Part shown: one piece after another, positions 1,276 through 60,006 of the stretch | How positions within the stretch are numbered: the stretch's first letter is position 1 | Layout: each line of letters begins with the position of its first letter | Source: Akanthomyces muscarius | Lineage: Eukaryota; Ascomycota; Sordariomycetes; Hypocreales; Cordycipitaceae | NCBI RefSeq assembly: GCF_028009165.1 | Contig: NW_026611617.1 | Coordinates: 1,002,001-1,066,000, forward strand | DNA: 64,000 nt | Direction of reading: 5' to 3' | Translations under genes and position numbers: made by a program | Notes under the pieces: generated by a model | What the model was told of the DNA's origin: nothing | Databases searched by the model: none | Seen by the model: only the letters and a program-made list of their open reading frames with translations

Positions 1276-2485
1276 ATGAAAGAAGCAATAGTGAAGAAAG
1301 ACATCTCGGTCGACATTGTCGATTCTCCTATCCCGAAGCCCGGACCTGGTCATGTGCTAATTAAGGTCGTCATCGCGGGTAAGTAATAAACTTTGAGGGC
1401 GTTGCAGCGGCCAATCTATAAGGCAACATCCCGCCTTGGCAGCGACATCTATGCGCCGGAGCTTCAATGTTCCAGTCGGTAGCTAAAGCAGGTCATTGAT
1501 AGGATCCAACCCGAAGGACTGGAAGGTCCCTGCCATGCGCGGCTCTGAGATGAACAGCGGTGACGACATTGCCGGCACCATCGAAGCCGTGGGACAGAAT
1601 GTCGTCGGATTCCACAAAGGCGATCGTGTGGCTGCCTTCCACGAGATGAGGACCTCTCACGGCGCGTTCGCCGAGTACGCTGTGGCGCCCTATTACACCA
1701 CCTTCCACATACCTGACTCGACATCGTATGAGGAGGCTGCCACAATTCCATTGGCGGCCTACACGTCCGTCTGCGCGCTCTTCCAGGAGCTTGAGATTCC
1801 CGAGCCCTGGTCGCCACTCGCCAAGGCCGCGGCAAAGAAGGGCACCAAGAATGCTCTCATCATCTATGGGGCCAGTACAGCCACGGGAGCCTTTGCTATC
1901 AAGCTTGCTGCGGCCGCCAATGTTCATCCTCTCATCGCAGTGGGAAGCAAGCGGAGCGCCTTTATCAAGCCCTTCCTCGACGAGAGCAAAGGAGATGCCC
2001 TCGTCGACTACACTGCTTACTCAACAGAGGAAGAGTTGATTGCGGCCATCCAGGAAGCCGTCAAGAAGGGAGGCGCTCCCGATGGCCGCTGCTGGAAGGC
2101 CTATGATACCGTTTCCGAGGACGAAACCGTCAGACTTCTCACCAAGGTCATTGCCGGCCCGCCGGACGCTGCTGGGCAGAGGCCAAAATTAACGAACATT
2201 TTCATGAAAACTGATGTTGAGGGCTCTGACCCGAGTGTTGATCTCGTCTTCTCTATGGTTGGCCAGGTCCACTACGAAGACGAGAAGGACAAGCTCATTG
2301 GCGTGACATGGGGCGCCGCATTTTCTCGGGGTCTTCGCGAAGGTTGGCTCACCAGCCACCCCTACACGGTAGGCAAGAACGGTCTCCAAAGCTTGTCCGA
2401 AGGCTTAAAAGGCCTTAAAGAGGGAAAGATTCGCGGCCAGAAGTTCCTGACTCGCATCGCGGAGACACCTGGTGCAAGCGCTTAA
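1276..2485 (+). CDS. MDR-family enoyl/quinone reductase (trans-enoyl reductase-like), 2 exons
   Basis: The model is join(1276..1378, 1503..2485), 361 residues. Exon 1 ends before GTAAGT and the acceptor is the TAG at 1500-1502. The join restores the SNPKDWK motif, which is typical of fungal zinc-independent MDR reductases (LovC/ToxD-like and zinc-binding oxidoreductases). An N-terminal GroES-like barrel is followed by an Ala-rich stretch (AATIPLAAYTS) and a Rossmann motif (YGASTATG) at about residues 155-165. The family reduces enoyl or quinone groups with NADPH, often beside polyketide synthases. No zinc-ligand cluster is visible. The divergent FAD monooxygenase suggests a tailoring-enzyme locus. 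The assignment to a secondary-metabolite pathway is inference. Confidence 0.85.
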
Positions 2486-2753
2486 GCAAAATAAGCCTAA
2501 CTTGATATGGGCTACTTTCCACCCTTGCTCAGGAGCAGATTCGCACCCTGGCACGAGTCCGTCGGCAGAGTATTTAAGTGTTGGTTAGTCTATATCACCA
2601 ATGCAGCATTCTTTGCCCTTAACAATCAATAAAATTGAGATGTAAGGATGGATTGAAACGACTATTGCCAAACTGATAACCCTGATCTCGAGACTTGCGC
2701 CGTTAACTTGCTCTCACTGGCAGCCCCCACAGCCGACCCAGATTCTTCAGGCT
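2486..2753. other. Intergenic, between convergent reductase and NACHT remnant
   Basis: Short 3' region. It contains AATAAA-like sequence near 2628 that could serve polyadenylation of the upstream reductase. Nothing else is recognised. Confidence 0.35.
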
Positions 2754-3440
2754 TCATTGTAAACGTGGCTCAATGGCAAAGCAGACGCCAACCCAGGAGA
2801 CTGCCGCTTCAGGCGAAGCCTTGACCAACTTGCCGATGATTGATTTCGCGGCTTCTATAGCCGCCATGCCGTCACTGATGCCCTGCTTTACGGCCGCTTC
2901 CCGCTGCGTTTTCTTGAGCTCAATCTGAACGAGTTCTTGCATTTACACGGCTCTCAGCTCGGGAGTTTGCAAAATCTCGTCGTTCCCGTCGATCGCTGTT
3001 CCAGCACTGCGCTGGTGCAGTTCGAGACCAAGTATTCTCTCGTAAGCCTCAACGAGCCTGGGGTCAGCGTCCTTCACCCCCTCGTAGGCCTGGTTTCGGA
3101 GCCGTTCCTGCAAGCTCTGGTGAGTTGTTGCGATACCTGGTAGGGCCTCAGAGCTTTGCGGGGGGTCGTCATTCGCTTCTGTCAACGGAGTCGTTGCGGC
3201 TCTCCCCGCAATGCTCTCTTGTCTCGTGGACGAGGCTGAGCGCGGTGTAGATCCAGCTGATGAGCTGAGCTCGGCTCTGTTGTGTTTCCACTTGAGGAGG
3301 ACAGACGGCAAGGTGACCCCGCTTGCGGAAGCCGATCGTTGCTTGATATATGAGTGTTGGAAGACGAATTGCGGCGAGTGGTCGGCAACCCTGATCCAGG
3401 CACAATGCACCCTGCGCCCCCTAGAAGGTATAGTGAGCAT
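2754..3440 (-). pseudogene. NWD NACHT-NTPase N-terminal domain remnant
   Basis: Two open stretches in one frame (2943-3440 and 2754-2942) are split by an in-frame TAA at 2943-2945. The first has a Ser/Thr-rich leader and then AYEGVKDADPRLVEAYE, characteristic of the N-terminal domain of fungal NWD-type NACHT STAND proteins. The second has EAAVKQGISDGM and AVSWVGVCFAIE, the end of the same domain. The frame then stops. No NACHT P-loop or repeat domain follows on either side, so this is the broken 5' end of a STAND receptor gene. An intron removing the stop is possible but I see no convincing splice pair. It sits directly beside the gasdermin-like / S8-NACHT-WD40 pair. Confidence 0.6.
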
Positions 3441-3470
3441 CGATATATATAGAGTTTGGTCGAGTCCTAC

Positions 3471-3488
3471 TAGGGTAGCGCTACCCTA
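3471..3488. repeat. Perfect 18-bp palindrome at edge of AT-rich island
   Basis: TAGGGTAGCGCTACCCTA reads identically on both strands. It marks the boundary between the NACHT remnant promoter side and the AT-rich island. It could be the end of a decayed inverted-repeat element or an operator-like site. I found no matching copy at the other end of the island. Confidence 0.6.
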
Positions 3489-3489
3489 C

Positions 3490-3790
3490 CCTATGAAGCT
3501 AAATAAGCTTTATTTAACTATATTTAAATCTTTTATAGAAATCAATTAATTTCTTAATATTAATTATTAATTTATAATAAAATAGTAATATTAGAATAAG
3601 ATTAAAAGTTAATATAATATAAGTAATACAATTATAATAAGTTTTATTATATTTTCTATTAATTTTATTATATAGTTTAAAATATAGCTCTTTTATAGTA
3701 AAAATAAGCCCTTTTTATAATATTTTACTTATTAATAATAAGACATCTTATTAGTTTTATTAGTATAGTTTATCTCATAGCGAAGTTCTA
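3490..3790. other. AT-rich island (RIP-like), no gene
   Basis: The sequence is almost entirely A and T with abundant TA steps and stops in all frames. It contrasts sharply with the GC-normal flanks. Such islands in Pezizomycotina usually are transposon relics mutated by repeat-induced point mutation. No element type can be recognised here. Confidence 0.65.
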
Positions 3791-3992
3791 TAGAGAGCAC
3801 TCTAATTGTCTGCTTTACTAAATCGCAGTAATCAGATAAATGCTGCGTGTCACAATGATGCCACTCTCAGTTTTCCCAAACTTTACTTGCCATCAGTGGC
3901 GCTTTGATTTGATAAGATGCAACTTATAGTAATTCCACAAAGCATAATGCCATCTTCGCCCTTCACAGAGTAGGAAGCACCATAGTTGAATT

Positions 3993-4877
3993 TTATGCCT
4001 TTTCGCGGGTGCTGGGCATGATTAGCTCGCAGTCCATGTCATCATTGTCATCGTTCTCGTCGCTGGAACCCATGTCGTCTACCCGAAGCGCGTCTTTTCC
4101 GATGTCCTCTCCAGTCACGTCATCTTCATCCAGCTCAATAAATACCACGGCTTCTCCGGCGCCTGCGGGCTCTCCACCATCTTTCGTCTTGTCGTCCTGA
4201 TCGTCCCTGACTCCATGCAACGCACCGTTCCTGAACGGCCGATCACTATAAGCCCCCTTGCTGTAGCGAATTTGTCTCAGCCCGTATGCAAAGACGAAGG
4301 GCGTCGACTCTTTGAACTCAATGGCTCTCCCGTCCTCTGACAAGCCCTGCATTGAGGCTCCGACGGCCGCAGGGACTCCACCGACCAGGTTTCCATCGAT
4401 GCCAACAAAACCCTTGCCGCCTTTGCCTCTGCCGACCGACTCCCTAACGCTAGCCCCGTAGGCAATCTTGACGCTTGTGACCATGTAGACGGGCTTCGTC
4501 ACCCAATGGCTAGTGAGATATCGCTGAGTCTGGGGTGCCTCGATGCTTTGTCTGACATAGTCATCACTCGGTTTGAAGGTGCGCGTTTCGAGCTTGGCGA
4601 AGTTTGCGAGACGGTCGTGGCTCTTGTCACTGCTACCACTGACTCCAATACCCATCCACTCCAAGAACCTGAGGAACACCCCGCCTCCAAGCGCCCTGTG
4701 TCTCTTCAGCCTTTCCTCGACGTTGGTCTGAGTGGACATGCGAATTTCACTCTCCGCGATAGGTAGAGGCACGGTGAGGGATCCCTCCGGGTCGAGCGGG
4801 TCGGAAAGAACACTGCCCAGGACCAGAGGCCCATCAGGGTGACAGTCGAAATGCGGCACGAGGAAATATGCTTTCAT
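3993..4877 (-). CDS. Gasdermin-like (RCD-1/HET-Q1-type) candidate pore-forming protein
   Basis: The frame is open from 5111. I prefer the Met at 4875-4877 (294 residues) because family-like sequence starts there; the longer start would give 372 residues. Near this N-terminus is FDCHPDGPLVLGSVLSDP. Mid-protein is VYMVTSVKIAYGASV, then a Gly-rich low-complexity stretch, then PFVFAYGLRQIRY. The spacing and character resemble the strands of gasdermin pore-forming domains (a V-Y-x-V-T strand, a glycine/polar insert, then a hydrophobic strand). They also resemble a widespread fungal family that I associate with RCD-1/HET-Q1 gasdermins. A C-terminal tail of about 70 residues is very acidic (DDQDD, ELDEDD, DENDDNDD) and could be an inhibitory tail removed by proteolysis. 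It diverges from a subtilase-NACHT-WD40 gene, the context expected for fungal gasdermins. The gasdermin call is inferred from remote pattern similarity and needs a profile search. Confidence 0.55.
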   Translation of the reverse strand: MKAYFLVPHFDCHPDGPLVLGSVLSDPLDPEGSLTVPLPIAESEIRMSTQTNVEERLKRHRALGGGVFLRFLEWMGIGVSGSSDKSHDRLANFAKLETRTFKPSDDYVRQSIEAPQTQRYLTSHWVTKPVYMVTSVKIAYGASVRESVGRGKGGKGFVGIDGNLVGGVPAAVGASMQGLSEDGRAIEFKESTPFVFAYGLRQIRYSKGAYSDRPFRNGALHGVRDDQDDKTKDGGEPAGAGEAVVFIELDEDDVTGEDIGKDALRVDDMGSSDENDDNDDMDCELIMPSTREKA

Positions 4878-6118
4878 GTTGTGCTCCAGACCGAAGGCGG
4901 CCTTGTCCGAAATAATGTGTGTATTTACTGGCAAGTGCTCTTGAGCATCGAGTGTAGTGAAGTACACCGGGGTATCAAAAGTCAAGCCGCTTTTTTGGGT
5001 GAGAATGGCATACAAAAAGACGCGAGACTTTTGACAGGGTACTGTAGATGCTGTCGGTAAGTCTTGGATACGCGGGAGTACAGTTGAATTAAGACAGGGT
5101 CTGTGTAGCAACTTATTGAGCCAGAGCTGATGATTCTATTGCTTGTCCTCACAATTGTGTCGAGCGGGGAGTTCGTTCTCTACCTTGTTGCGCCCCAAGC
5201 TGCACGGTGATTTGACGCTAAAATATGTGGGCACTGGTTAAAGCGATATCCTGCTACAGTGGTTGAGCCAAATTTAACGGTGAGGCCCATCACCCAGACG
5301 GGCGCTATTTACTATTCACTTACACCACTGCAGACGACTCTCTGAACAGCACCAACCCCTCTTTTTAAGCTTGTGCAGTTGACAAATGTTGCATTACGAT
5401 CTGGCTCACGATTGGTCCTCTTGCCGCCGCAACGGCCTACAATTAGCCCAGCGCTCATAACACGGGGGGGGGGGGACGGATCTATTATTATCGACGGTGC
5501 GGAGTACAAGTAGGTACATTCTGCGCCACCTGTGGACTCTATAGGCCCACGTATGCAGCTATCGTCGGCTGACCACACATTGAGCGACAATTATGTATCA
5601 GCCTGGAGGGCGCCTATATACACCAAGAGCTGCAACTTCCGCGACTACGCGTTCGAACACAGTCAGCCCAGCCCTGTCACTGGTACGAGCATTGTATCGT
5701 ACTTGACACCCGACGAAGTCGCTAGGAGAAGCAGTTTATGCTGCACTGGAATCTACTTCACAAACTGGGCGTTGTCGGCACATGGCGTACCACAGCTGTA
5801 TGTGCAGGAGTGTGGATCTTAATTTTTAAACTGGCCAAATAACCCCACTGGCCACTGTCGTTCCCATGCCAGGGAGAGCCTGACCGCCGTAAGCAAGGGC
5901 GCCACGCCTGCCAATGGAAAGACGTGAAGCTGTCTCAGCCTCAGCCTCAACCACCTCGTCGATAACTGCGCCGAAATTAGATGCAGTGACCAAGAGTTGG
6001 CACACCCGACACGCTTCATGTCCTTCTCCTCAGCACCACCATCCGGCTTGGCTATACAGAACCAAAAGACGGCAACAGCTTCGCTCACCAGGATTGCGGG
6101 GCAGGAGAAAAGGGCAAA
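4878..6118. other. Divergent promoter region of the gasdermin-like / S8-NACHT-WD40 pair
   Basis: About 1.24 kb separate the two start codons. It has a G12 run at 5464-5475 and no recognisable gene. Open reading frame continues upstream of 4877 to 5111 without family resemblance and is treated as 5' UTR. A shared bidirectional promoter is plausible. Confidence 0.45.
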
Positions 6119-9100
6119 ATGCCCAGGTTGGATCCCAATGTCCCATATTACGATCGTAAAAGGTGTGTTTCTCCTCCGGCGGCACCAGAATGGGGGTTAA
6201 CCTGGCGTAGCAAGGGCAGCGCAGATGCGTGGCTCCAGAAGTTCGAAGATGTCTGTCGGCCCCTTTATGGTTATGATGGGAATCGGCCCGTCAGGATAGC
6301 CATTCTGGACACCGGCATAGATTGGTCATTGATCAAGGGGCAGGCATTACAGGAGAGGGTCAAAGATGAAAAGTCATTTCTTGCAGAGGACGACGGCAAG
6401 GATGACGACAGCGCCGCTCCGGACGCTTCTAGGGCTGCCCACGATGAAGCAGATGATCGTCATGGCACCAACATCGCCGGTCTTGTTCTGAGGCTCGCCC
6501 CCTGGGCACACGTATACGTCGCCCGCGTTGTCAAAGACCACAAAAGCTGCATCACACCTAAAAGTTTCGCCAAGGCATTTATCCATCTTCCCATTATATA
6601 ACCTAGCGCCGGTCGGTCACTAACTGAACAACAGGCCATCTACCACGCGATTGACACCTGGAAAGTCCACATTATTTCCATCTCTCTAGGCTTCCAGAGC
6701 CCTCACGAGTGCGTCGAGGTAGCTATACGCTATGCCTCCGAGAAGGGGGCCATCATGTTTGCGTCGGCGTCCAATGACGGAGCAAATCGACCCATGGATG
6801 ACAGGGCCCCATTTCCTGCATCCATGAGCGAGGTCATCTGCATCAATTCATCAGATGGACAGGGAAACCCGTCAGACTTTAACCCGCCGCCCGGCGATGA
6901 TGATTTCAATTTCATGACCTTGGGAGAATCCGTGCTTACCATTCCTGGTCTAGCCGCCGGTGACGCAGATGAGAGACATACAGGGACGTCGTTTGCGACT
7001 CCTATTGCCGCGGCAATTGCAGCGGTATTCATCGAGTTCTTCAACCAGAGGCCTCTGCGACTGCAGAAGCATCTTGTGGAAGAGGTCATCACTCAAGATG
7101 GCATGAGCAAGCTCTTCGTCGGTATGAGCGAACCCGTCAACGGCTTCAGGTATCTGCGGCCATGGGACTTGATGTTTTGCCAGAGGCATTCTGAGGTTCC
7201 CAAATGTCGCAAGGGTGCCGCAGAGAAAGTCCAGGCTGCCATGGCCCGTCGTCTCCCCACGCCTACTTCCACCATTCCTAATTTACCACATGTTCCAGGA
7301 GCGGAGTTTGACTCCCACTCTCATGAGGATGGCGTGGGACAAATCCAACACGATGCCTGGACACACTTTCCGGAAGACACAGAGGGACTATGCCTCAAAG
7401 GCACCCGGACACAGATCCTCCATGACATAGCGAAATGGGCAGACAGCCCGCATGGACAGCTTTTGGGCTGGCTTACTGGGCGAGCCGGCAGTGGCAAATC
7501 AGCCATCGCCCGGACAGCATGTCTTGAACTTCGATCACAACGTCGCCTTGGCGCAAGCTTCTTCTTTTCCAGGAAATACCGAAGACGCCACGAGGCCACC
7601 GACTTTGTGACAAGTATTGCGTACCAGCTTGCAAAGTCTCAACCTCGCGTAGCCAGAGCAATTGCGGCTGCCATTGCTGCCGATCCAGACCTGGCGGGGC
7701 GGGAGAAAAACAGACAAATGCAATGGAGAGAACTTGTTGTCACCCCTCTCGCGTCTCTTCGCTCCAATGTGGTCATTGTCATCGATGCATTGGACGAATC
7801 CACTCAGGCTGACCGCGTGCTCCCTCTGTTCGCAGACTTGAAGCCTTTGCAGGCCAAAGTACGAATCCTCGTGACCAGCAGGTTGGGGACGCTCATCGAG
7901 GGCGCCCTTCATTCATCCTTGCCAGCGCCCTGTCGTTTTGATTTGGACTTGGAATCATTGGCCGAGTCGACCTCCAAGGACATCTCCCTGTTCATACGGA
8001 GTGACTTGGCGCCGCTAAAGGAAACAATAGAAGGCCAGGGAGACACTTCATCGTATGACGCGGTCGTTGAGAAAGTTGCTACAAAGTCTGCGGGGCTTTT
8101 CATCTACGCAAAGACCGCCTGCCGCTACATTCGAGGCACGGATGTGTCTTGGGACAGCCGGCAGTCGACTGACGCACAGGAGCGGCTCGCTAAAGTCCTG
8201 GTTGACAAGCAGTTTGAAGGCATTGATGGTCTATATACCGAGATTTTGTCTCGCGCAACAACGGGCAGGAATCAGAAGGAGGTTGCACAACAGCTTCATC
8301 AGGTCCTGGAGCTCATCATGATACTGGCTAACCCGGTGCCGGAACAGGCGTTTAAAAAGCTGTGTCCTGCGGACATCAAACCAAGCCTGATCAAGGACCG
8401 TTTGGACTCTCTCCACTCTGTCCTCGTCGTTCGGCGAACACCGTCCGATACAGTCGAAGTTTTCCATGAATCGTTTCGCACATTTATTCTTGAACATGCG
8501 AGCTCCGATTTCAAAGTGGATGAATCTGGGGCTCACGAGCGCCTATTTGGTCGGCTCATGCTTCTCATTTCCCAGAAAAGCCTCAAGATGGACATCTGTG
8601 ATCTCCGTGATCCTGCAACGGCTGTTGAGGAGACTGATCAGCAAAAGATCAACAATCACTTACCTCCAGAGATTCAGTATGCATGCCGGTACTGGGTCTC
8701 GCACCTTGAGCAGGTCGACCAGACCCGACACCGTAACATGGGACTGGTTGATGCCGGCCAGGTCCACCATTTTCTAGAGAAACACTTTCTTCACTGGCTT
8801 GAGGCCCTCGGTCTCATGGGCAGCGTTGGCACTGGAATTTACGCCATGAAGAAGCTAAAAAAGATGCTGTCGGTAAGCTATTACCCACCACATACCCAGG
8901 AAGAGGCAAATGCGTCGATCTACGTTGCTCACATTCTCTGCTGTTAGGACACCGCCGGCGCGGAGCAGCTTCTGATACTTGCCCACGACGCGTTGCGCTT
9001 CGTTCAACACCATCGATGGTTGTTGAAAACTTACCCCCTTCAAGTCTACACCTCCGCTCTGATATTCAGTCCTTCCAGCAGCAAGGTGAAACAGCTTTTC

Positions 9101-10855
9101 CAGGGTACCATCCTCCACTGCGTCGCAGTACCGGAGATCCTCAAGCAAGGCTGGGGCAGGGACCTCAGAATCAGCGACCCAGTTGATCTAGTCGCCTGTA
9201 GTCCCAGCTCATTGATACTCGCCACGACGGACGGCAACGAGACGGTCTCTATTTGGGACATGGTTACAGGCGAACGGCTATCTAGGTTTTATCATGAGTC
9301 TGTGAGATGTCTTGCTTTCTCGCCAGACGCGAAGATGCTGGTCTCCGCGGGCGGGACAATGCAAAGATTGGAAAGGGACAGTTCAGAGGGTCAGAGCCCT
9401 AATTCAAGGCCGTATCTGATCAAAATCTGGGACTTGGACAAGGAGCACGCTACATCTTTGCCTGGATATACAAGCCCTATCACCTCCATTGTCTTGTCTC
9501 AAGACAGCATGAGGCTTGTCTCAGTGGCAGAGGATGGCATCTTTGCGGTCTGGAATATGTGCTCCAGGGTGTGCGAAGCGACAATCCAGCTGCCGAGTGC
9601 GTGTATGAAGAACGAAGCAAGACATTTCTTGCGGCGTCTAGATCCCATTCACGGGCCTATTTGGGGGCCCAATGGAGGGCACATCCAGCCACACGAGACG
9701 AAAGGCCCTCTGGTTCGCTTTTCAAATGACCCCGAGCTCCTTGTGGTGGCTTCGTACTACTTCGGTGTTAGAAGCTGGTCAAGTCGCCACGACCATTGGA
9801 AAACCATCCTAGAAGGCGGTCATTTTGAGATTGATAATGATTGCTTCTCTCCCGATGCGAAAACCTTTGCAGTCTATAGTCACTGCTGTGCAGATATTTA
9901 CGACGCCTCCGCAGGCAAACTACTTCAGTCTTTGCGCCATGAGGCTCCTGTCACACGTGTCGTGTATTCTTCAAGTGGACTTGTGGCAACAGAGACTGCG
10001 ATTGATCGGCGAAGCGAGTACATCATTCACATCTGGGACGTTGAGCGCGGAAAACGCCTCTGGAAGCTGCGCAACAGCGACGTCTGCGGTGCTCTGGTGT
10101 TTTCGCCAGACTCGACGATGTTGGCGTCAACACAAGGTACCGGAACTTTCAAGATCTGGGACATGGCAACCGGGAAGTGTCGTCAGAGGCTCGGCAATGC
10201 ACTCGGATCGCGTCCGTCATCCATGACGTTCTCTTTCGACTCGGAGATGCTCATAATGAGGCTGCGCCACAAACAAATCCAGATCTGGGACTTGACGAGC
10301 CCTGATAGGCTGCCTGCCAGAGGTGTTCGGTCCCGGCTTATGGATTCCATCTCCTTTGGTCTCGCCTCCATGGCGGCAGGCAGAATCGTCCGGCGACAAG
10401 AGTTTGAGAAGGACGGGGAGATGCAGCAAGTCATACCCAGCCGGTATTCAATCGCGACTATAACCTTTTCACAAGATCCGAAAGTCCTAGTGTCCGTCAC
10501 GATTGATAAATACTTGGCGGGTCGACGAACAGAGACCCGAAACCCCGTCAGCTTGTTCTCGGATTCTTTATGTCCTGGAGCAACGAGTCCGGAGTCTCGG
10601 GAGTTCGGCCTGACAGCATGCGGGACGTGGATCACGCGAGATTCCAAACGCTGGGTGTGGCTCCCTCCGACACATCGTGCCAGTTGTCTGGCAGTGCAGG
10701 AATCCAAGACCGTTGGAAAGACGTCGACGGAGTCAACACCAGCAGCCATGTCGAGGCTAGCGGTCGGCTGCTTCTCCGGGACTATTCTCATCCTCTCTCC
10801 ACCCGGCCAAGGGGACGATGTTGATAGCAGATTCCTTGCTCGCACAATTGTCTAG
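6119..10855 (+). CDS. Subtilase(S8)-NACHT-WD40 STAND receptor (NLR-like), 3 exons
   Basis: The model is join(6119..6574, 6635..8872, 8948..10855), 1533 residues. Residues 55-300 form an S8 subtilase with a complete triad: Asp64 in AILDTGID, His115 in DRHGTNIAG and Ser271 in GTSFATP. Asn199 in ASASNDG is the likely oxyanion residue. A NACHT NTPase follows, with P-loop GRAGSGKS (434-441) and Walker B VIVIDALDE (about 532-540), then a helical region. From about residue 960, WD40-like repeats with IWDM/IWDL ends (SIWDMVTGE, KIWDLD, HIWDVERG, KIWDMATGK, QIWDL) fill the C-terminus. There is no signal peptide, so it is cytosolic. Known STAND logic: WD40 binds a ligand, NACHT oligomerises, the N-terminal effector is activated. 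The divergent gasdermin-like gene is the obvious candidate substrate. Intron 1 (6575-6634) appears to start with GC rather than GT. Intron 2 is canonical. Confidence 0.9.
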
Positions 10856-10869
10856 CCTTAATAGGATAG

Positions 10870-11330
10870 AATATGGTAACTTGAGGCGCTAAGAGGTATA
10901 GTATAGGTTAAAAAGGAAATAGTTTCTATAGTAGATAACTTATTAGTATATTATTACTTATTATAATAAATTAAAAGGGACAAATAAGTTCTTTAAAGGT
11001 TCTATTAATTAATTAATTTATATAATTTAATATTTATATTTACATACTCTTAAAAAGATAAAAGATAATATAATAATTTATTTAAATAAATAAATAAATA
11101 ACTATATATATATATATATATATTAAATATAAAAAGTTATTTATTCTTTATATTAACTTATAATATTTATTATTTAAATCTTCTAAATTAATATAAAGAA
11201 TAATTAATATAATAATATATTATTAATAACTAATAATTCTCTCTTATAAATTGTTAAGCTTCTAAATATTTTATAAACTTAAACTCTATTGTTAGTCACA
11301 CTATATTATATAATTAGCCACAGGACTTGA
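10870..11330. other. AT-rich island (RIP-like) downstream of the receptor
   Basis: Nearly pure A/T sequence with a (TA)n run near 11103-11122 and stops in every frame. It begins just after the receptor stop codon and ends abruptly near 11330. Together with the island at 3490-3790 it flanks the gasdermin-like / receptor pair. It is probably a mutated repeat. No transposase motif can be read. Confidence 0.65.
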
Positions 11331-11679
11331 GCGATGTCGAGCACAATGTAGCCGAGAGTTCACGCATGTTCCAGTCGCAGCCGAAGCGGCGCCGTACTGA
11401 TTAATTGAGCGACATCTTCTGGTCGCCATACGTACTTGTGCGCCGACAATTTGGGGGTCGGCCATCGGCCTCGAAGCTCTAAACGAGCCTAGGGCTGGGG
11501 ACGATACTTTTCGTCAATGCGGGGTTACCGTAATCAATATATGGATCGTAACGCTTTAAAGTTTTAAGTGGAAAGTCTTTATGCGGTGACAGTGCGGAGA
11601 AAGTGCGGGGATGTGAGCACCTGAACCATTGTGTAATTCGTCTAGTGTATGTCCTCACCCATGTGCTTCTGGCCAATCT

Positions 11680-11935
11680 TTGCGCTTGTCAAGGCGTAGG
11701 TTGCGTCGCGACGCTAGTGCCTGTTCGACGTCGAGTTATCAAATGTTTGCGCTTGTCGGAGGTTGCTCCAGGACTCTAGTCCCTGTTCGACGTCGAGTTA
11801 TCAAATGTGTGTACTTGCAGGGGCGTGGATGTGCCGTGAGTCTGGTCCCTGTTCGATGTCGAGTTATCAAATGTCTGCGCTTGCCGGGGCGCAGATTACG
11901 CCGCGGCTGGTCCCTCACTGTCCGACATGGAGTCA
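11680..11935. repeat. Imperfect tandem repeat, 62-66 bp unit, about 3.5 copies
   Basis: A core beginning CCTGTTCGAYGTCGAGTTAT recurs at 11720, 11782 and 11848 (spacing 62 and 66 bp). A degraded fourth copy lies near 11908. Between cores, TTGCGCTTGT-like and CTAGT/CTGGT-like segments also recur. The cores are almost identical while the linkers differ, so the core may be under constraint or recently homogenised. It lies between an AT-rich island and the lipase promoter. Confidence 0.8.
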
Positions 11936-12306
11936 TCTCTACCCCAGAGGCACGTGCGCCTTTTTGAGTTGCTTGGCGCAGAAAGAAGACATCAATAGTA
12001 TACGATGGAGCCCTAATAGTCAGTATGAGGAATAGATGCCACCGGCGTCGATTGACGTGTTCTTGGGTTCCCCAGCCCGACGGAGTTGAACAGGAATTAC
12101 CCGAGCCTTGAGGCCGAGGGAGTACTCGCAGGCTCCGCGCGCGTGCGCTCCGAAAGCATCTAAGGGCGTCACGACTTCTTCGTTGTCTTGCAGCTGGGAC
12201 GGGCGCGGAGTCCGCGTCCTTGCATGATATTCCGCGTCGATGGATTGTACCTCGGGCACATGTTTTGTTGGATGTGGTACGCTACTGCTGAGGCTTGGCT
12301 GTCATC

Positions 12307-12315
12307 TATATATAT
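12307..12315 (+). promoter_or_regulatory. TATA-like box of the secretory lipase gene
   Basis: TATATATAT about 85-93 bp upstream of the lipase ATG, a normal distance for a fungal core promoter. Sequence match only. Confidence 0.4.
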
Positions 12316-12399
12316 CAACCACACGACGGCCGCAAATTGTGAAAAAGTCTTCAAGGTAGTCCAGTACTTGCAACGAAGACTTCTCACACAGAGCCAACA

Positions 12400-13815
12400 A
12401 TGCAGATCAATCTCTGGTCCGCGGCTCGCGCCATTCTTGTCCTCGCCACCTCTCTCCATTCGGTCCATGGCCGGGCCATTGACACTCCTCGGAACCTGAT
12501 TCCGACCCCTAGTCAGGACCCCTTCTACATCCCACCCGCCGGCTTCGAGTCGGCCAGTCCCGGTGCCGTCCTTCGCTCCCGTAAAGTCGTGGCGTCCTTC
12601 TTTTCACTCATTCCCAACCCCATCGAGACGTACCAGATCCTGTATCGCACCACCGCCGTTGACGGATCCGCCATTGCAACCGTCACCACCGTCTTCAAGC
12701 CAGCCTTTGCCAAAAAGGACCGGTTCGTCACATGGAACACGGCCTACGACAGCTCGGCCACGCAGTGCAACCCCAGCTATTCGTACCGCCTCGCGTCCAG
12801 CATCTTGCCGTCCATTTTTACCACGAATGCTATCGAGCAGCTAATTATTGAGCTCTACATTCTCAAGGGCTACATTGTCTCGTCGCCCGACTATGAAGGC
12901 CCGGACGCGGCCTTTACCGCTGGCCGACTCTCCGGCATGGGCGTCTTGGACAGCATGAGAGCCGTATCCAACTTTGGCAGCACCCTGGGTCTCTCGACGA
13001 CCAAGCCGTCCATCGTTGGCGCTGGCTACTCTGGCGGCGGTCTTGCCACCGCTTGGGCGGCGGCTCTGCAGCCGAGTTATGCCCCCGAGCTGCCCGTCAA
13101 GGGCTGGACTGCCGGCGGGATTCCTGCTAACTTGACGTACATTTTTGAGTCGATTGACAGCACGCTCTTGAGTGGTTTTGAGACTATTGCCCTTGCAGGT
13201 CTTCAAAAGCCGTCCGCCTATGGAGCCACGCTGAAGCCGTTTCTGGACGGACTCGCCACACCGGCCCTTCAAAAGGTGCTCCATATCGCCGACACACAAT
13301 GCATGGTGCCGAATCTCCTTGCTTTCCCGTTCCAGTCTCTGTTCGACACCAAGTATCAGAGCCTTGGCAAGGACATTCTCGCAGCCCCAACACTGCTCTC
13401 CGTTTTGCAGGACAATACACTGGGCGTCGACAAGGCACAGAAGCCGTCCGTGCCTTTTCTCATGTTCCATGCCAAACCCGATGAGCTCGTTCCATACGCC
13501 CCCGCGGCCAAAACCCGCGACACGTGGTGTGCTGATGGTGCCACCATTAAATTTATCGAATACGGAAATGGTGGCCATGGTACTACCGCTGTGCTTGGGC
13601 TTCCTGATGCCGTGCAGTTTGTAGACGATTCGTTCAACAACAAAGTTGCTTCTGGGTGTACGAGCAAGACTGTTCTTGACAGCACACTCAACCCCCTTGC
13701 GTTTGGCATCTCTTTGGAGCCTCTGGCTATAGGGCTGATCAACTATTTAGCCGCCCTAGGCAAAAAGGATGCGAATTGGCTGGCAGGCATCAAAAGCGGC
13801 GCAGTTACAAGATGA
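12400..13815 (+). CDS. Secreted lipase (secretory lipase LIP family)
   Basis: A single-exon gene of 471 residues. Residues 1-24 form a signal peptide ending near VHG. The alpha/beta-hydrolase core has the nucleophile elbow GAGYSGGG (Ser211), an acid in AKPDELVPY (Asp361) and His393 in GNGGHG. This is the catalytic triad order of the fungal secretory lipases (Candida LIP-type, PF03583). Flanking family features include DYEGPD near residue 166, upstream of the nucleophile. It hydrolyses extracellular triglycerides or related esters. The length is typical (430-470). The start follows AACA and matches the signal peptide. A zinc-cluster-less regulator follows on the same strand, but no co-regulation can be shown. 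Confidence 0.9.
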   Translation: MQINLWSAARAILVLATSLHSVHGRAIDTPRNLIPTPSQDPFYIPPAGFESASPGAVLRSRKVVASFFSLIPNPIETYQILYRTTAVDGSAIATVTTVFKPAFAKKDRFVTWNTAYDSSATQCNPSYSYRLASSILPSIFTTNAIEQLIIELYILKGYIVSSPDYEGPDAAFTAGRLSGMGVLDSMRAVSNFGSTLGLSTTKPSIVGAGYSGGGLATAWAAALQPSYAPELPVKGWTAGGIPANLTYIFESIDSTLLSGFETIALAGLQKPSAYGATLKPFLDGLATPALQKVLHIADTQCMVPNLLAFPFQSLFDTKYQSLGKDILAAPTLLSVLQDNTLGVDKAQKPSVPFLMFHAKPDELVPYAPAAKTRDTWCADGATIKFIEYGNGGHGTTAVLGLPDAVQFVDDSFNNKVASGCTSKTVLDSTLNPLAFGISLEPLAIGLINYLAALGKKDANWLAGIKSGAVTR

Positions 13816-23562: not shown

Positions 23563-26500
23563 TCAACTACTCACATCGATCCCCTGCTTCACAGCCACGC
23601 CCATATTCAACTCCGCCAAACCCCTCGTTAGCCTCCCCATGTCCATCACCGGCGATACCCTCGCCACTTCCTGCACCAGGGCCGGCGCCTCCTCCTCTTC
23701 TTCTGCCCCCTCATCCACACCATTCCACGCACAGCTATCGGCTTCGTCCTCCAGCACCACCACTGGCTCCCCACCCGGTAGCTTCACCTCTGTAGCATTC
23801 AGCGTCTGCGCAATGTCCAACATCAGCACATCCATAGGGCAGATATACGCGACCCTCTTCCGCTGGCTCCACGCCAGAACGTGTCCGCAGAGCGTCCCGT
23901 CGTGCGCGCCCGTGATCCACGCGCCGCTGTCGCCGGGAATTCCCATGGCGTGCTTCGCCGCTGCGTCATCCGGACTCGCGACCTGGTACGTGTGGCTCGG
24001 GGAGACACGTCCGTATATCTTGACGCTACAAAGCGCGGGTAGGATGCGCCCCTTTTGCAGGCCGCTCGTGCGCGCCACGCACTGCACCTCCTTGCCGGGA
24101 AGGGCTGAGGACGGCGCGAGCACAGTTGGCTGCAGCGGCCTGGCGGCGGCCGTGAGCATCTGGTTGTCCGCCGGCAGGCGGTCGTGCCCAAACTCAAACA
24201 GCGCCCAGTCGACTTCGTGCACGAGGCCATTGTCGCGCCGGCGCCGTATGCCGCTCGACGCATACACGGGGCCGAGGCTAAACGTGTCGAGGTGGTCTTC
24301 GTCCTCCGTCTCGGGGCATGGGTAAAAGCCCTCCTCGACATCGTCTAGCGCCGGCTGCGTGACCACATATCCGTCGCCGCAGCCGGGTTCAATGCCGGGA
24401 ATGTCGCCAGGCTCCTCCTCCTCCTCCTCCTCTTCTTCGCTCTCGTCGCCGTATTCACTCGTAATGTCCGTGTCAGAGTACGGTTCCGATTCCGTGTCCG
24501 ATAGCTCGTAGCCGTCGTCGTCCTCTTCCTCATCCATGCTGTCGAGTTGCGACGAGCTGTAGGTGGCTGGGATCGCTGCGCTGCGGCGAGTCTCCTGGGC
24601 GCTAAAGTCACGGTCCGGGTCGTCGAGCATGTGATGCACCGTCATGCCGTACGTCTTGCCGTCAACAGTCACCAGCCCACCAAAGCTCACAGGCGGCAGA
24701 TGGCGATCCCCGATCCAGGCACCAATGCTAGCACCGTTTCCCGGACGTTCTTGATACTTGGGGTTCACGGCCTCGACCTCGTCGTCGTCCGTGGCCATGG
24801 AGCGATGCACCGAGTCGGTAACGTGGCGGGATCGGACAACGTGACCACGGCACACTTTGAAGGCAAATCCCGTAGATCCGTCAAAGAGGTCCCCGACACG
24901 CTTCTTGAGAATGGCGCGCACCTTGCCGACGGACGAGCAGACGACGAGCACCGTGGGCTCCGTCTGCTGCGGGCTGAGGCCGATGGATTCGAGCGAGATT
25001 TCCACAGATTCAGGGTGCTTGCGGTAAAAGTGGCGAAGAGCCTGGTTAATTTGCGGCATGAGAATCGTGTTCCACTTCTCGACCGCCTCGGTGGGCAGCG
25101 GCACCTGCGTGTATAGCTTGAGCTTCGGTTCCTTGGCTGTAGACTGCGGCTGCGGCTGCGGCACATGTTCGCTGACAGGGTCCATGATACCCTCAGAGCC
25201 CACGAACGTCTGCGCCTGCGATAGAGAATGAAGAGATTTGGTTTTGAAATCACTCGGCTCGGCCTGCCGAAGCGCCTCACGCTGCGCCTCCTCTTGAGTA
25301 TCTGTATTTAGCCTTTGCTCCAAGCCACTGACGCCATCGAGAATGCAGCACGTCTCGAGGAACCGGCTGACGCGCATCTGCACCTGCGACAGCAGCGTCT
25401 CGCCCGTGGCCTCGCCAGCAATCTCCAGGTCGACAGCCTCCCAGCACGCATGCACCGCCTTGGTGTACAAGCCGCCACACTTGACCTTGAGTCGTTCCAT
25501 GGCGGATGTAAACGCGACTCCGCTAGCATCAGCAGGCAGTGTCTCGATGCTGGTCCAGAGACCAATAGAAAGTAGCATCATAGACAGCGCATACAGCTCC
25601 AGCACCCGCTCATCTGTATTCTTAGCCAGCGGCGACTTAGGCAAATAGCGGGGGTCCAGCGGGTGATGCAGCGTGTCTTCAGTTTTGTCTTCCGAAAAGA
25701 TGTCAAACGACGAGACGAGCGGCCGGCGCACGTCAACAACTGCATTGGGCGGTTCGCCGTCCGTGTTGGCTTTGTTGCAGAACGAGATATTATCTTCCGT
25801 GAGCTTGCCGTGCGTCACGCCGCGAGCGTGCATGTCAAAGACTGTATTAGCAAGGTTGTATGCGAGGCGAAATTTAGCTTCCAGCGGCGGCTCCATGGTC
25901 GAGGACGCAAGCAGCGTGCGCAGCGTCGAAATCTCGTGCGACGAGCTCTTCTTGTAGCCCTCAATGATGGCCGAGTCAAAGGGCGACGGGAAGCGATAGA
26001 CCAGCCCAAACCTCGAGTTCTCCATGTCCTCAAAGTAGCCCAGCAAACGCGGCAGACCGGACCACGCCCCTGGAGCGCGCTGCGAGTCTTGCTGCAGACC
26101 GGCCGACAGCTTCTCGAAACGCGCCATGGGCGGCATGATGCCCGTAGTCGAGTAGATGGGGTCAAACGTGGCGAACTCCAGTAGCAGCGGACCCCACGGC
26201 TGACGCGTGCGGCCCTGTGCCATCTCTGAATATGCCGTCTTGCTCATGAGCACGACGGCGCGCTGCGAAGCCACGTTGGCAGGCAGATCTCTGGCGGGCA
26301 GAATCTCTGTGAGTTGCGTGGGGTCAATGACCTGGGGCGTCTTCATGCGCGTCGACTCGAACGCTCTATATTCCTCAACGCCGGGGCCCTTGTGCAGTCC
26401 ACCCTTGGAGACTCTCCTCATCGCCGCGCCGCGCGTCCTCGAGAGATCGTACAGCGTATCGACAGACGCGGTAAAGTCATTCACCAAGTCCTCGAAGCGG

Positions 26501-26898
26501 GCGCGATCCCACTGCACCATCTTTTCCTTTTTGTCCGCGCCGCCTGCACTGCCGCCGCTGCCGCCGCCGCTAAGCCAGAGCTGCTCGGCCTCGGCGAGAA
26601 TGTCCTTGATGGTGGACATGATGCTGCCGACAACCTCGCTCAGGCCGGCGCGCGACAGCGACTCGTCAATCTCGGCGGCCTGCGCGGCGGGGTCGGACCA
26701 CTCGAGACCCCAGCTGACGAGGCGGTCCTTTTGGATGCGCAGCTTGCGGTGCAGGCCGGTGACGTCGGGGTCCTGCTGCTTCTCGCGGGGTACGGGCGCC
26801 TGGACAAAGTCGCTCGACTTTTTGGTGTCGTTGTAAAGGCGGGAAAGGCGGCGCTGAAAAGGCAGCTGGAAGCCGCCCGCGGGGAGTAGCGCCTCCAT
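23563..26898 (-). CDS. Pseudokinase plus trypsin-like serine protease fusion, incompatibility-type protein
   Basis: A single exon of 1111 residues with no signal peptide. Residues 1-160 are helical with a HeLo-like flavour ([14 protein letters not shown], then an amphipathic helix). Residues about 230-520 look like a kinase fold with a broken active site: THGKLTEDN replaces HRDxxxxN (about 362-370), and the DFG position reads SFD. From about 725 to 1040 is a chymotrypsin-like protease core: VHHML (His755/756), EVDWALFEF (Asp897) and GIPGDSGAW (Ser991). A Glu/Asp-rich insert (about 788-830) lies between His and Asp. So a complete His-Asp-Ser triad seems present behind a pseudokinase. Comparable multidomain proteins occur in fungal programmed-cell-death repertoires. 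The HeLo assignment is tentative; the protease motifs are clear. Confidence 0.7.
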
Positions 26899-27946
26899 GT
26901 GTGTCGGGTGGTGCGTGTTGGATGATTGGTAGTGGTGGTATGTATTTGGTGATGTATATTCGGTTATATGTAATCGGTAGCGTGTATTGATAGTGTGTAT
27001 TCGATGCGTATGTGTGCCTTATAGAAGGGCTCGTTGGTATTTGTCGGTCTTTGCGACAGAGGGCTCGTCTTGCCAGGCAGGCGTATTCCGCAGTCGCACA
27101 GCAGGCAGCCAGCGACCGACAGACTCTACGCAAGAGCGGGTATCACGGCGATTCTCGTAGTCGAAACTCGGTGCCTGGAGTCTGTGTGGCTATTGTGCCA
27201 TTATTCGTCCTCTTATCGTGCCGTCGGCTCGTCTCACGTCTGCGGCAGATGCGCTCCTGTCGTCGCGGCAGCAGTAGTCGCAGCTATACAGAAGAAAATA
27301 TGGAAAAGGAAATCGGAGCAATGACAGATGGATTAAAGATGGTAGAATAAAATAAAGCTAGCCGCCCGACTCGCATACAGATGGAAAATGCTGATGCCTG
27401 TTTGCAGCGAACGAATGTTGACCCCCCCGCCGCCAATCCATCTCCTTCCTCCCCCGCAAAAGGAAGCCGCTGAACCCTGCAACGGCTCCGGTTGGTCAGA
27501 AATCCTGCTGCCTGGCTGCGTCCCACCCTGCGCCACGGCTGACAGGCATTTCAGCAGCACGAGACATTGATAACAGCCTGAGACTATTTACACAAAAGAT
27601 GACAATCGGCCGAAAAAGTGATAAAGATGTCATATCACAGTTTGGCAGTCTAGCGAAAGTCTGTGAAAGGCTGGGTAGGTACAAGTACAACGGCTAAGAT
27701 GATGGGTAACGGTCTGTCCCTTATAGCCTGGAGTAGAGGTCAAGGTACGTTAAAGAGCTTGCTCTAGTTGATAAGCGTATGCCTCGATGACAACTAAAAC
27801 AAGTCGTACTTGATAGAAAATAGGGCAACTAATTGAAAAGAAAATTCGCATCACACTTCTGCTGTTGCGAGAAAATCTTAATATATATGACTTAAAATGT
27901 AATCGGGCTACGCCCACTCGTAAATACAATCCTCATCACAGCCTCT
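26899..27946. other. Intergenic, no gene
   Basis: 5' region of the pseudokinase-protease gene and 3' region of the secreted subtilase. AATAAA-like motifs occur near 27350. No supported gene. Confidence 0.5.
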
Positions 27947-30735
27947 CTAATCATATTTAATCACAAACCGGGTACCAATCGTGGTATCCCAGTCCTTGTC
28001 ATTGTTGGGGTCACCAAACACGCGCAGCGCACGCACCACAATGCGGTACTTGCCCGGCGGCGCATAGTCGCCATTGTCGAGCTGTCCGTCCCATGGATCC
28101 GTCACCGCGCCGCGGCTGCTGAAAAGCATCGGGAAATCAAACGGCTGGCCAATCGTCTTGTAGCCCTTGTACTCAAAGGTACCCTTGGGCGGGCACGTCG
28201 TCATGGGCTGCAGGTGGGCGGTAATGTTCTTGGAGCCGAGGCTCATGTTGATGACAAACTGCGGCAGACGCGTCTGCGGCGTGGCCTTGCCCGGGCCGGG
28301 GAGGGTAAAGGTCTGGTTGACGGGGAGGGCCTTGAGCTCCTTGTCGTCGCTCCAAGAGATCCAGCTGGCGTTGGGGTCCACGACGACATGGTCCTTCATC
28401 GAGCCGGATACACCCTGGTACGGCATCGACAGCGAGGTGCCGTCGGTGCCGTTGATGGTGACGAAGCCTGACCACACGGGCAGGCGCTTGGCGTCGGCAC
28501 CCTCGGGCGGCGTGGCGCTGATGTCGACCGACTCGGAGCCACCGGCAGGAATGGTCAGCTTGTCCTTGCTGAAGCTCAGCTTGGCGTAGCTGTCGACGGC
28601 CTCGTTGGGGAAAGGCTGCACGTGACTGCCCGAGGCACCGAGCGCGTACATGGTGTAGGCGGAGACCTGGCCGAGGTCGTAGGTGACGGACTCCTTGCCC
28701 GTGTTGCTGACCTTGAATGTGAGCTGCTTGACAAAGTTGGCCGTGTCGTTGAAGGCGAGGTTGGACGGCTCCAGGAGCGTCGTCGCAAACGCGCTGTCGT
28801 ACACCTGGATCAGACCAGCGCCCTGCTGCGGCACGGGGGCCAGCTTATCGAGGAACTTTGTGTTATCGTTGAACAGCTGCGGGTTGGCGTTGGCAGAGAG
28901 CAGGTTGGTAATGGTGGCGGGCGAGAGCTTCTTGCCGCGGACTTCAAGGAGCAGCGCGACCGAGGCGGCGACAAACGGCGTCGCCATCGAGGTGCCGGAG
29001 AGCACGGCCCAGGAGCCCTTGGCCGTGGGGTAGGTGGACAGGATGTTGCCGCCGGGGGCGCCGACGTCGGGCTTGACAAAGAGCTCCCACGAGGGGCCCC
29101 AGGTGGTGAAGCTGCTGAGGGCACCACCCGTGACGGTGTTTTTCTTGATGGAGAGCGACTTGCCCGACTTGGCCGAGCTGTTCATGGACACAGTCACCTT
29201 CTTGCCGTCCTTGAGCAGGCCGATGATGGTGGCGCCGTCCTCCGACGAGATGAGGCTGATGCCGAGAGCGAGCGGTGTGCCGTCGACCAGCATGCTCAGC
29301 GGATCGGGTTGGTTGTTGTAGATGAGGACATACTTGGCGCCCTTGGCCGTGGCAAAGTTGACCTTGTCGGCAAAAGCGCAGGTGCCGCGGTGAATGAGCA
29401 CAATCTTGTCGCTCAGGTCGGGCGTGTCGGCGGGGTAAGCCTTGCAGCCGTCGTCGGGCTTGGTGGTGTCGTAGCTGCCGGCCCAGACGTCGAGCGTCAC
29501 GCCATCCCAAGCATCCTTGGCGGAGCTGGTGGTGAGAAGCTGCTTCTTGTCGCCGCCGTCGACGGCGTAGTAGTTGACGTTGGCGAGCACAGGGGTATCG
29601 GTGTTGTCAAAAGAAGAAATGGACACGGCGCCCTTGCCGGTCGAGCCGCTGCTGGGGAAGAAGAGGCCGTCAGTGCCTTCGTTGCCGGCGGCAATGGTGC
29701 AAGGCACGCCACGGGCGACTATACGCGCAATCGTCTGAGCCCAGGGCTCATCGACCCAGCCAGAGGGGCCACCAATAGAAGCAGTGATGATGTCGGAGCC
29801 AGCCTGGTAGGCCTTGTTAAAGGACGAGATGAGCACGTCGGTGCCGGTGCTGCCGGAGCAGCCAAAGACTTTGTAGGCGCCGAGGGTAACGTCGGGTGCC
29901 GTGCCGGTAAAGTTGTACTCGTTGGGCTGGGCGGCAATGATGCCCGCGACGTGGCTGCCGTGGCCGCCGCAGTCCATGGGGTCGTTGTCGGGCACGGGGT
30001 GGTAGTCGCCGTCGCTGCCATAGTGGTCACCGACGAGATCGTAGCCGTAGCCGACAAGACAGCCCTCGCCAAAGCATCTGCCGAGAGCAGGGTGCTTGTA
30101 ATCAATCTGGATGTGTGAGCTAGACTGTTCGTGGATACTCAGGCAATGGATGACTTACACCAGTGTCGACAACAGCAACCTTGATGCCGCGGCCCTTATA
30201 GCCCTTGGCACGCATCTTGTCAATTTGACCCATGCGCTGGGCACTGCTGATGGGCTCAGCGCCATCTCGCGCGCTAATGGTGCCGGAGTCGCCTTTGTCG
30301 GCCAGCGCCTGCAGACCTTCGGTGGCCACCCACTCGACATTAGGGTTGGGGCGGGGCACCAACTTGACGGGCCAGATGTTCTTGACGGCGGGCAGGGCGG
30401 CGAGCTTCTCTGCCTTTTCGTCGGCGGTGTTGACGTCGTTTAGCTGGATGGAAACGCCCTGGAACAGCTCAAAGTTGAGGTCGACACGGACGGTGGCGTC
30501 CTGCTGGACGGCATCAAGAGCGGCCTTGTTGTTCTGCGGTCGCAGTCAGTATTTCTCTACACAAGTCGTTGTCTATCCCAATTGCGGCAGTACGTACATG
30601 GCCATCTTGGAACTCGATAATGAAAGCACCGGGAATGGCGGGCTGTGCCTTGTTGGGGTCGGAGTCGGTGTCTTGGCCAACAACCGCCGTGGCGGCGGTC
30701 GCCAGGAGCGTCAGGAGCGAAGAGGTCCTGACCAT
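27947..30735 (-). CDS. Secreted subtilisin-like protease, PR1C-like (S8A with PA domain), 3 exons
   Basis: On the minus strand: exons 30735..30598, 30533..30159 and 30106..27947; 890 residues. Donors are GTACGT and GTAAGT. The signal peptide MVRTSSLLTLLATAATAVVG is followed by an I9-like propeptide (residues about 35-120). The triad is Asp169 (VAVVDTG), His220 (CGGHGSHVAG) and about Ser544 (LSGTSMATPF). A PA domain is inserted before the Ser (SEDGATIIGLL region). A beta-rich Fn3/DUF1034-like region follows from about 600. Size and order match the large fungal subtilases called PR1C in entomopathogenic Hypocreales, which degrade cuticle and other proteins outside the cell. A TATATA lies about 130 bp upstream of the start. 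Completely intact. Confidence 0.92.
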
Positions 30736-47353: not shown

Positions 47354-48240
47354 GGCGAAGACTGATGCAGAATTATTGTCTCACGTTATTCTGATTGCAC
47401 GGAGCATTAGGGGCGTTGATATGGTGCAGGTAGCACGTTCGACGGCGGCCGCTACATGCGTAACTAGTGCCCAGGCGGGAGCCCAGTGCGCTAGGCCTGA
47501 GATCTCCTCAGGTACCCGTACAATGCGGTGCTTATCCTCGGCGCCTCAGGCCTGCACGATCTCTTAGCAAAACTTCACGTTACTGGAGCCGCCTTAACAA
47601 AGGCAAAGGCGCCTCCTTTACAGTTTGCGCCCGGGAGTTCATGATTTGCCCCAATTAGACCTTGACACAGATGTGTTTTGTCTGCATTTGTACACTTTTG
47701 CATTTAGACCCTGTAAGCCTGAAATACAGCGCCCAGGGCATCAACTCCGGTGCCTTTACAGCGGGGTCTTGGGCCATCTGCCTCAAATTACAGGGCCTTC
47801 TTCTTGTCCCTACACTGTTGTCCCGCCTAGCTATCCCATCTTTTGTCCAGCCCCGGCTCTGATAGGAGCACATTGTGCGGAAATACTGCTTGGGCCATAG
47901 CGAACGTCCAAAGTAGTTAGTAACTGACGTTATTGTGTGTGGAATGGCGGCACGGGAAAGCTACTCAACACGGTACGAAGTTCTGAATCCGCGCCCGCGC
48001 GCGAAGGCAGGGGCCGCCAGGCTGCCTCAGAAGGTAGTGCCTCGTGAGTATGCCGGGTCCTTTTGTCAGCACTTGGTGTCACTGACAAACTCATCTTTAG
48101 CAGGCGTTTTACGGCACATTAGTACGCACTGCGTAGCCGTTATCCGCGAACAAAGAATACCGTAGCGGTCACGGAGGCATCCTTGATCGAGCAAGCTCCT
48201 CTGCGAGTGAAGAATTCCAAAGTAAGTTGTCCGATGCTGA
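47354..48240. other. Intergenic, no gene
   Basis: About 0.9 kb. Open frames without motifs. It may contain the 5' end of the GST-like remnant (a GTAAGT donor occurs at about 48223), but no start codon could be tied to it. Confidence 0.4.
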
Positions 48241-59981: not shown

Positions 59982-60006
59982 ACAACTAACTTTTTGTGGG
60001 GTGCTG
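59982..60006. repeat. Right terminal inverted repeat
   Basis: On the minus strand it begins CAGCACCCCACAAAAAGTTA, followed inward by GTTGT. Three mismatches to the left copy. Followed by TA at 60007-60008. Confidence 0.88.

Follow-up and report, generated by a model that had tools for sequence, protein, structure and literature searches.

Does a single locus of the fungus Akanthomyces muscarius bring a sensor, a protease and a pore-forming protein together in two neighbouring genes? The question is raised by positions 3993 to 10855 of a 64,000-nucleotide stretch of contig NW_026611617.1 (positions 1,002,001 to 1,066,000; hereafter the window), where a 294-residue protein is encoded divergently from a 1533-residue receptor with an N-terminal subtilase (Peptidase_S8, here S8) domain. 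We consider the locus likely to be a two-gene regulated cell-death module of the fungal gasdermin (fGSDM)/Q2L kind, in which the S8 domain of the receptor would cut the gasdermin encoded beside it. This reading is carried by the domain anatomy of the two proteins, the intact catalytic and nucleotide-binding residues of the receptor, the homology and fold of the gasdermin, and the recurrent pairing of the two kinds of gene. The two start codons lie 1241 bp apart, well inside the 10 kb between protease and gasdermin genes by which Q2L/fGSDM clusters are recognised. The features of the locus are as follows.

3993..4877, minus strand: fungal gasdermin gene, single exon, 294 aa; putative pore-forming domain (about 1-209), linker of low confidence (about 210-240) and a tail beginning near 242.
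3993..4139, minus strand: the 48 tail residues that follow F246; remainder of strand 242-253, then strand 263-267, an acidic stretch of low confidence (271-280) and a last strand, 282-286, bearing a C-E-x-x-x-P motif.
4878..6118, no strand: shared divergent intergenic region, 1241 bp, from the gene coordinates.
6119..10855, plus strand: receptor gene, 3 exons and 2 introns, 1533 aa.
6119..6574, plus strand: receptor exon 1; first part of the S8 domain, including D64 and H115.
6575..6634, plus strand: receptor intron 1; GC-AG (AAG/GCATTT ... CTAAC ... ACAG/GCC), 60 nt, with an in-frame TAA inside.
6635..8872, plus strand: receptor exon 2; S8 part with N199 and S271, NACHT/NPHP3_N (P-loop 434, Walker B 532) and the region after it.
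8873..8947, plus strand: receptor intron 2; GT-AG, 75 nt.
8948..10855, plus strand: receptor exon 3; WD40 propeller region.

The 294-residue protein is a gasdermin by sequence and by fold. Homology searches matched it to HET-Q1 (E = 6.2e-13), RCD-1-1 (7.9e-13), RCD-1-2 (6e-10) and a bacterial gasdermin (0.0034), and as a single-sequence query it still found HET-Q1 (2.2e-05) and RCD-1-1 (0.034). Its predicted structure has the gasdermin fold, with RCD-1 as the closest solved structure; a first model, built from 8 sequences, was discarded for its predicted local distance difference test (pLDDT) score of 46. A reading of the letters alone (the sequence-only reading) had called this protein gasdermin-like and had named the lack of a structural match as a ground for giving up the idea; sequence and fold both agree with known gasdermins. 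The identification stands on these homolog and fold comparisons because the Pfam scan gave no significant family, its only row being a sub-threshold match to Voldacs (E = 0.069), and Pfam alone would have missed the gasdermin. Relatives were not found in viral and prokaryote contig collections, a result that is uninformative on fungi. By analogy with characterised gasdermins, the protein would be expected to form pores.

The receptor combines three modules in one polypeptide. Pfam places Peptidase_S8 at residues 58-303 (E = 2.5e-21), NPHP3_N at 409-568 (6.8e-31) and NACHT at 431-573 (1.9e-8), and the C-terminal part gives WD40 and propeller matches, with the best stretches at about 1056-1353, that identify a superstructure-forming repeat domain. 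The S8 catalytic set is complete (D64, H115, the oxyanion residue N199, and S271), and each of these residues lines up with its counterpart in the relatives P0008, P0009 and P0010; P0011, which its source marks as low quality, lacks the stretch with the serine, and P0012 begins after the part with D and H. The nucleotide-binding motifs of the NACHT domain are present, with the P-loop from 434 and Walker B from 532, as in a signal transduction ATPase with numerous domains (STAND). The WD40 repeats of the HNWD receptors are near-identical to one another, whereas Tandem Repeats Finder reported no tandem array in receptor exon 3 (8948..10855). The combination of S8 triad, NACHT motifs and WD40 repeats that had been seen in the letters is thus borne out, although the frame needs a GC splice donor that the sequence-only reading had not mentioned.

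The pairing of gasdermin and protease recurs within the same genome (36.2 Mb in 12 contigs, cited here by number, the window lying on C10). A genome-wide search found gasdermin-like genes on C10, C11, C7 and, weakly, C6 (E = 5.2e-4), the C6 piece in turn finding C11 in the reverse search (1.3e-4) and scoring 8.9e-17 with a hidden Markov model (HMM) of 17 gasdermins run against a few loci. A fifth, on C5, was seen only by inspecting the neighbourhood of an S8 gene (E = 8.2e-14, same HMM over 302 open reading frames (ORFs)). At least 29 S8 loci were counted (30 matches at 27 distinct loci in one search and two more from another, all lower bounds), and five of them, on C10, C11, C5, C6 and C7, match the S8 part of the receptor. 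Four of these five S8 genes (C10, C11, C5 and C6) adjoin a gasdermin-like gene, and of the four gasdermin-like genes that came from the genome-wide search three have an S8 neighbour; the 24 other S8 loci have no gasdermin within about 1.5 kb on either side. Beside the S8 ORFs of C11, C5, C6 and C7, on the same strand, ORF-level matches show DUF7580 rather than NACHT-WD40, and thus the window receptor appears to be the only NOD-like receptor (NLR) with an S8 domain among the five.

The individual loci differ in layout. At C5:998304-1002875 (L063, L065), DUF7580 and S8 ORFs stand divergent from a diverged gasdermin-like ORF in a 329-aa open frame, and at C6:3119454-3124063 (L062) they adjoin an RCD-1-like gasdermin gene that matches in two pieces, each in a different frame (intron or decay). 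C7:338-401 kb holds an unpaired gasdermin (338 kb), an unpaired DUF7580-S8 locus (383 kb), NACHT-region matches at 358.7 and 399.5 kb and a weak one at 379.6 kb beside a 965-aa frame. The fifth receptor-like S8 gene (C7:383 kb) has no gasdermin in 376.5-390.5 kb, and neither S8 nor CHAT matches occur within about 10 kb of the C7 gasdermin, which lies some 44 kb from it. A CHAT protease was considered as its partner and set aside, the five matches in the genome being on C2 and C3 only (CHAT was the one further protease family searched genome-wide), and Pfam found no protease in 6 of the larger ORFs around it. With a gasdermin, NACHT-region matches and a DUF7580-S8 locus within about 60 kb, this cluster is a possible defence or allorecognition island.

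Outside A. muscarius, Diplogelasinospora grovesii has a homolog of each gene: P0003, a gasdermin 47% identical to that of the window, and P0012, an S8-NACHT-WD40 protein with 66% identity in the S8 domain and 54% in the NACHT domain over its annotated part. The two apparently share a contig, being from the same species and both having 114,106 bases listed as the length of the longest contig. Lack of a conserved pairing in related fungi had also been named in advance as a ground for rejection; the pairing is kept in a relative through D. grovesii, and the genome of A. muscarius itself holds four S8-gasdermin pairs, the window's included.

How might such a pair work? By homology to HET-Q1/HET-Q2 and to a CHAT-TPR pair, the WD40 propeller would hold an NLR-like intracellular receptor off until a ligand is met, whereupon the NACHT domain would bind nucleotide and oligomerise. 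The subtilase domain at the N-terminus of the receptor would then cleave the gasdermin within or close to its linker or first tail strand (about 210-247), with F246 as the best single candidate for the P1 residue. Removal of a tail of about 5 kDa would uncover the pore-forming domain, which would insert into the plasma membrane so that the cell or hyphal compartment dies, and the module may serve defence or allorecognition. Sensor, protease and pore former in two adjacent genes would make this a compact case of potential ligand-gated gasdermin activation.

The tail that would be removed has its own character. The strongly acidic C-terminus noted from the letters is real: the 48 residues after F246 carry a net charge of -15 in about 5.3 kDa, against a net charge of 0 for residues 1-246. 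In the structure model the low-confidence stretches are 210-240 and 271-280, whereas the block of strand 242-253 scores pLDDT 81-90, strand 263-267 scores 78 and strand 282-286 scores 79, and the tail is thus probably partly folded. This short tail is also partly conserved. In an alignment of 15 sequences that includes the window's own, 13 have Cys283, which is followed mostly by E-hydrophobic-hydrophobic-x-P, with E in 12 and P in 13 of the 15. We put forward, as a doubtful idea, that the inhibitory tail of this gasdermin subfamily is a folded lid (strands 242-253, 263-267 and 282-286, with the conserved C-E-[hydrophobic]-[hydrophobic]-x-P in the last) rather than an acidic plug; Cys283 might act as a lipid or redox switch, and the S8-NLR would free the lid through a cut in the linker or in the first of these strands.

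Several observations weigh against the module as proposed. The main doubts about the mechanism concern the splice donor of intron 1 and the place of the cut, and cleavage, expression and toxicity stand as predictions. The position of F246 is Phe in 7 of the 15 sequences (the closer group), while the remaining 8 have V, A, I or L, or a gap, there, and the model places this residue inside a strand rather than in a loop. Among the pairs, the C5 gasdermin-like gene is the least certain, a 204-aa piece of its ORF finding itself alone genome-wide, while the S8 match on C6 falls just below the Pfam cut-off (21.3 against 21.8 bits) and contains one stop; the C6 pair may be decayed. As annotated, P0012 of D. 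grovesii lacks the part with D and H and has an altered P-loop (GRAGRGKF), and to judge from its sequence it may be misannotated or decayed. For the S8-NLR relatives of Fusarium (P0009-P0011) and Trichothecium (P0008), no gasdermin partner was recognised among 7 and 15 matches, a weak result given that the search was limited to shared words.

The splice donor bears on whether this receptor is made at all. P0008-P0010 keep their sequence continuous across the K/A junction at the intron 1 site, and the 60-nt insertion with its TAA must therefore be an intron. At the same site the paralogs have GT donors (C11 AAG/GTAAGT, C6 AAA/GTATGA) where the window has AAG/GCATTT, whose +4 to +6 context is weak against the donor consensus. 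Other in-frame donors between 6500 and 6601 with the acceptor kept at 6634 (GT at 6512, 6518, 6527 and 6530; GC at 6506, 6521 and 6569) were set aside, as each would delete residues kept in P0008-P0010. Without removal of intron 1 the receptor would be cut short at 160 residues, ahead of the catalytic serine, and no active protease would be made. These facts are the basis for an alternative that is compatible with the module and that we judge unlikely, though it has the best standing among the three considered: the pair is real but the receptor of this allele is off, the conserved intron having lost its GT donor, so that most transcripts would be open for just 160 codons and the gasdermin would lack its activator. 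Against it, the remaining 1533-aa frame is open with all catalytic and P-loop residues intact, the intron has a branch-like CTAAC site and a CAG acceptor, and GC-AG introns do get spliced in fungi at low frequency.

Activation of the gasdermin might also need no cleavage and come from an encounter with a different allele, with the receptor acting on something else. This is how RCD-1, the closest solved fold, is described as working in a review (PMC12881547). We regard this explanation as improbable here: gasdermin genes recur beside S8 genes, the tail of about 48 residues is about as long as that of HET-Q1, and the relative found is a near-identical one (P0001, 98%), with no clearly divergent allele. 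That chance alone put the NLR beside the gasdermin gene is scarcely credible and already largely refuted, for although fungi commonly have both families and no gasdermin lies in the 1.5 kb or so covered on each side of 24 of the 29 S8 loci, at least 29 S8 loci in 36.2 Mb would give a neighbour within about 3.5 kb to some 0.6% of gasdermins (by arithmetic), yet three of the four found genome-wide have one, and the pair recurs in D. grovesii.

Around the module, AT-rich blocks with short AT tandem runs lie at 3480-3790 and 10900-11320 of the window and are possibly remnants affected by repeat-induced point mutation. A search of 2400-12600 for repeats of at least 24 nt found two inverted pairs within the right block and one direct-repeat family at 11699-11892, and none common to both sides of the module. 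The direct repeats are three head-to-tail copies of a unit of about 66 nt, 79-80% identical to the middle copy, and no ORF of at least 100 aa lies there. Farther along, the window holds a HET-domain gene at 45512-47380 (PF06985, E = 8.2e-28), another incompatibility-type gene; a 1151-aa open frame at 23566-27018 with a HeLo match just below the Pfam cut-off (23.0 against 23.2 bits); and, at 27950-30154, a subtilase with PA and fn3 domains that is absent from the matches to the S8 part of the receptor. GC content drops to 0.30 at 59001-60000, against 0.39-0.49 in the adjoining kilobases.

How does the locus compare with systems already described? It is not new in kind, but a particular member of the Q2L NLR/fGSDM clusters with a GC splice donor. 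Gasdermin genes beside S8-protease NLRs have already been published (Clave 2022, cited in PMC9815663 and PMC12881547), PMC10197012 treats the same gasdermin-protease clusters, some of them termed contracted pyroptotic-like pathways, and Peptidase S8 was listed as an N-terminal class of fungal NLRs by 2014 (PMC4986451). Among gasdermin-controlling sensors, PMC12881547 describes NLRs with a protease as N-terminal module as a small subset, and regards what such sensors respond to as a major open question. The earlier proposal that fusing a protease to a STAND sensor couples ligand recognition to gasdermin cleavage is supported as an interpretation by anatomy and pairing, its functional step being a prediction; as a new coupling it is not supported, since S8- and CHAT-NLRs beside gasdermins had been reported. 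What this locus adds is a tail that is predicted to be partly folded and has a conserved Cys motif at its end, and the GC donor.

PMC12881547 gives an account of earlier experiments on HET-Q1/HET-Q2 and on one CHAT-TPR/gasdermin pair. HET-Q1/HET-Q2 of Podospora anserina resembles the window in having a gasdermin of the same family (HET-Q1 pore structure 9uv9), an S8 protease as activator and a tail of about 5 kDa; HET-Q1 is described as cleaved at F238 (P1) with the removal of 40 residues (PMC12881547, PMC10989679), and the window tail of about 5.3 kDa is like the fragment of about 5 kDa reported for it (PMC12881547). F246 and F238 are alike in distance from the C-terminus (48 and 40 residues), not by alignment. 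HET-Q2 is described as a 388-aa protease, with the two genes as idiomorphs at one locus (PMC10989679, PMC12881547), whereas in the window a 1533-aa NACHT-WD40 receptor carries the protease as its N-terminal domain and the genes occur together. RCD-1 of Neurospora crassa, the closest solved fold, differs in being controlled by allele pairing and not by cleavage, as that review presents it (PMC12881547). The CHAT-TPR/gasdermin pair of P. anserina, whose activation was tested (PMC12881547), is alike in that a multidomain protease sensor adjoins a gasdermin, and differs in having a CHAT cysteine protease and TPR in place of S8, NACHT and WD40. HET-E/HET-D (HNWD) share the NACHT-WD40 scaffold in the same source (PMC12881547), with a HET effector domain where the window receptor has S8. 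The nearest counterpart is the Q2L NLR/fGSDM cluster of Clave et al. 2022, in which an NLR with an N-terminal S8 domain adjoins a gasdermin; as these clusters are characterised in PMC12881547, PMC10197012 and PMC9815663, we found no difference in kind between them and the present locus.

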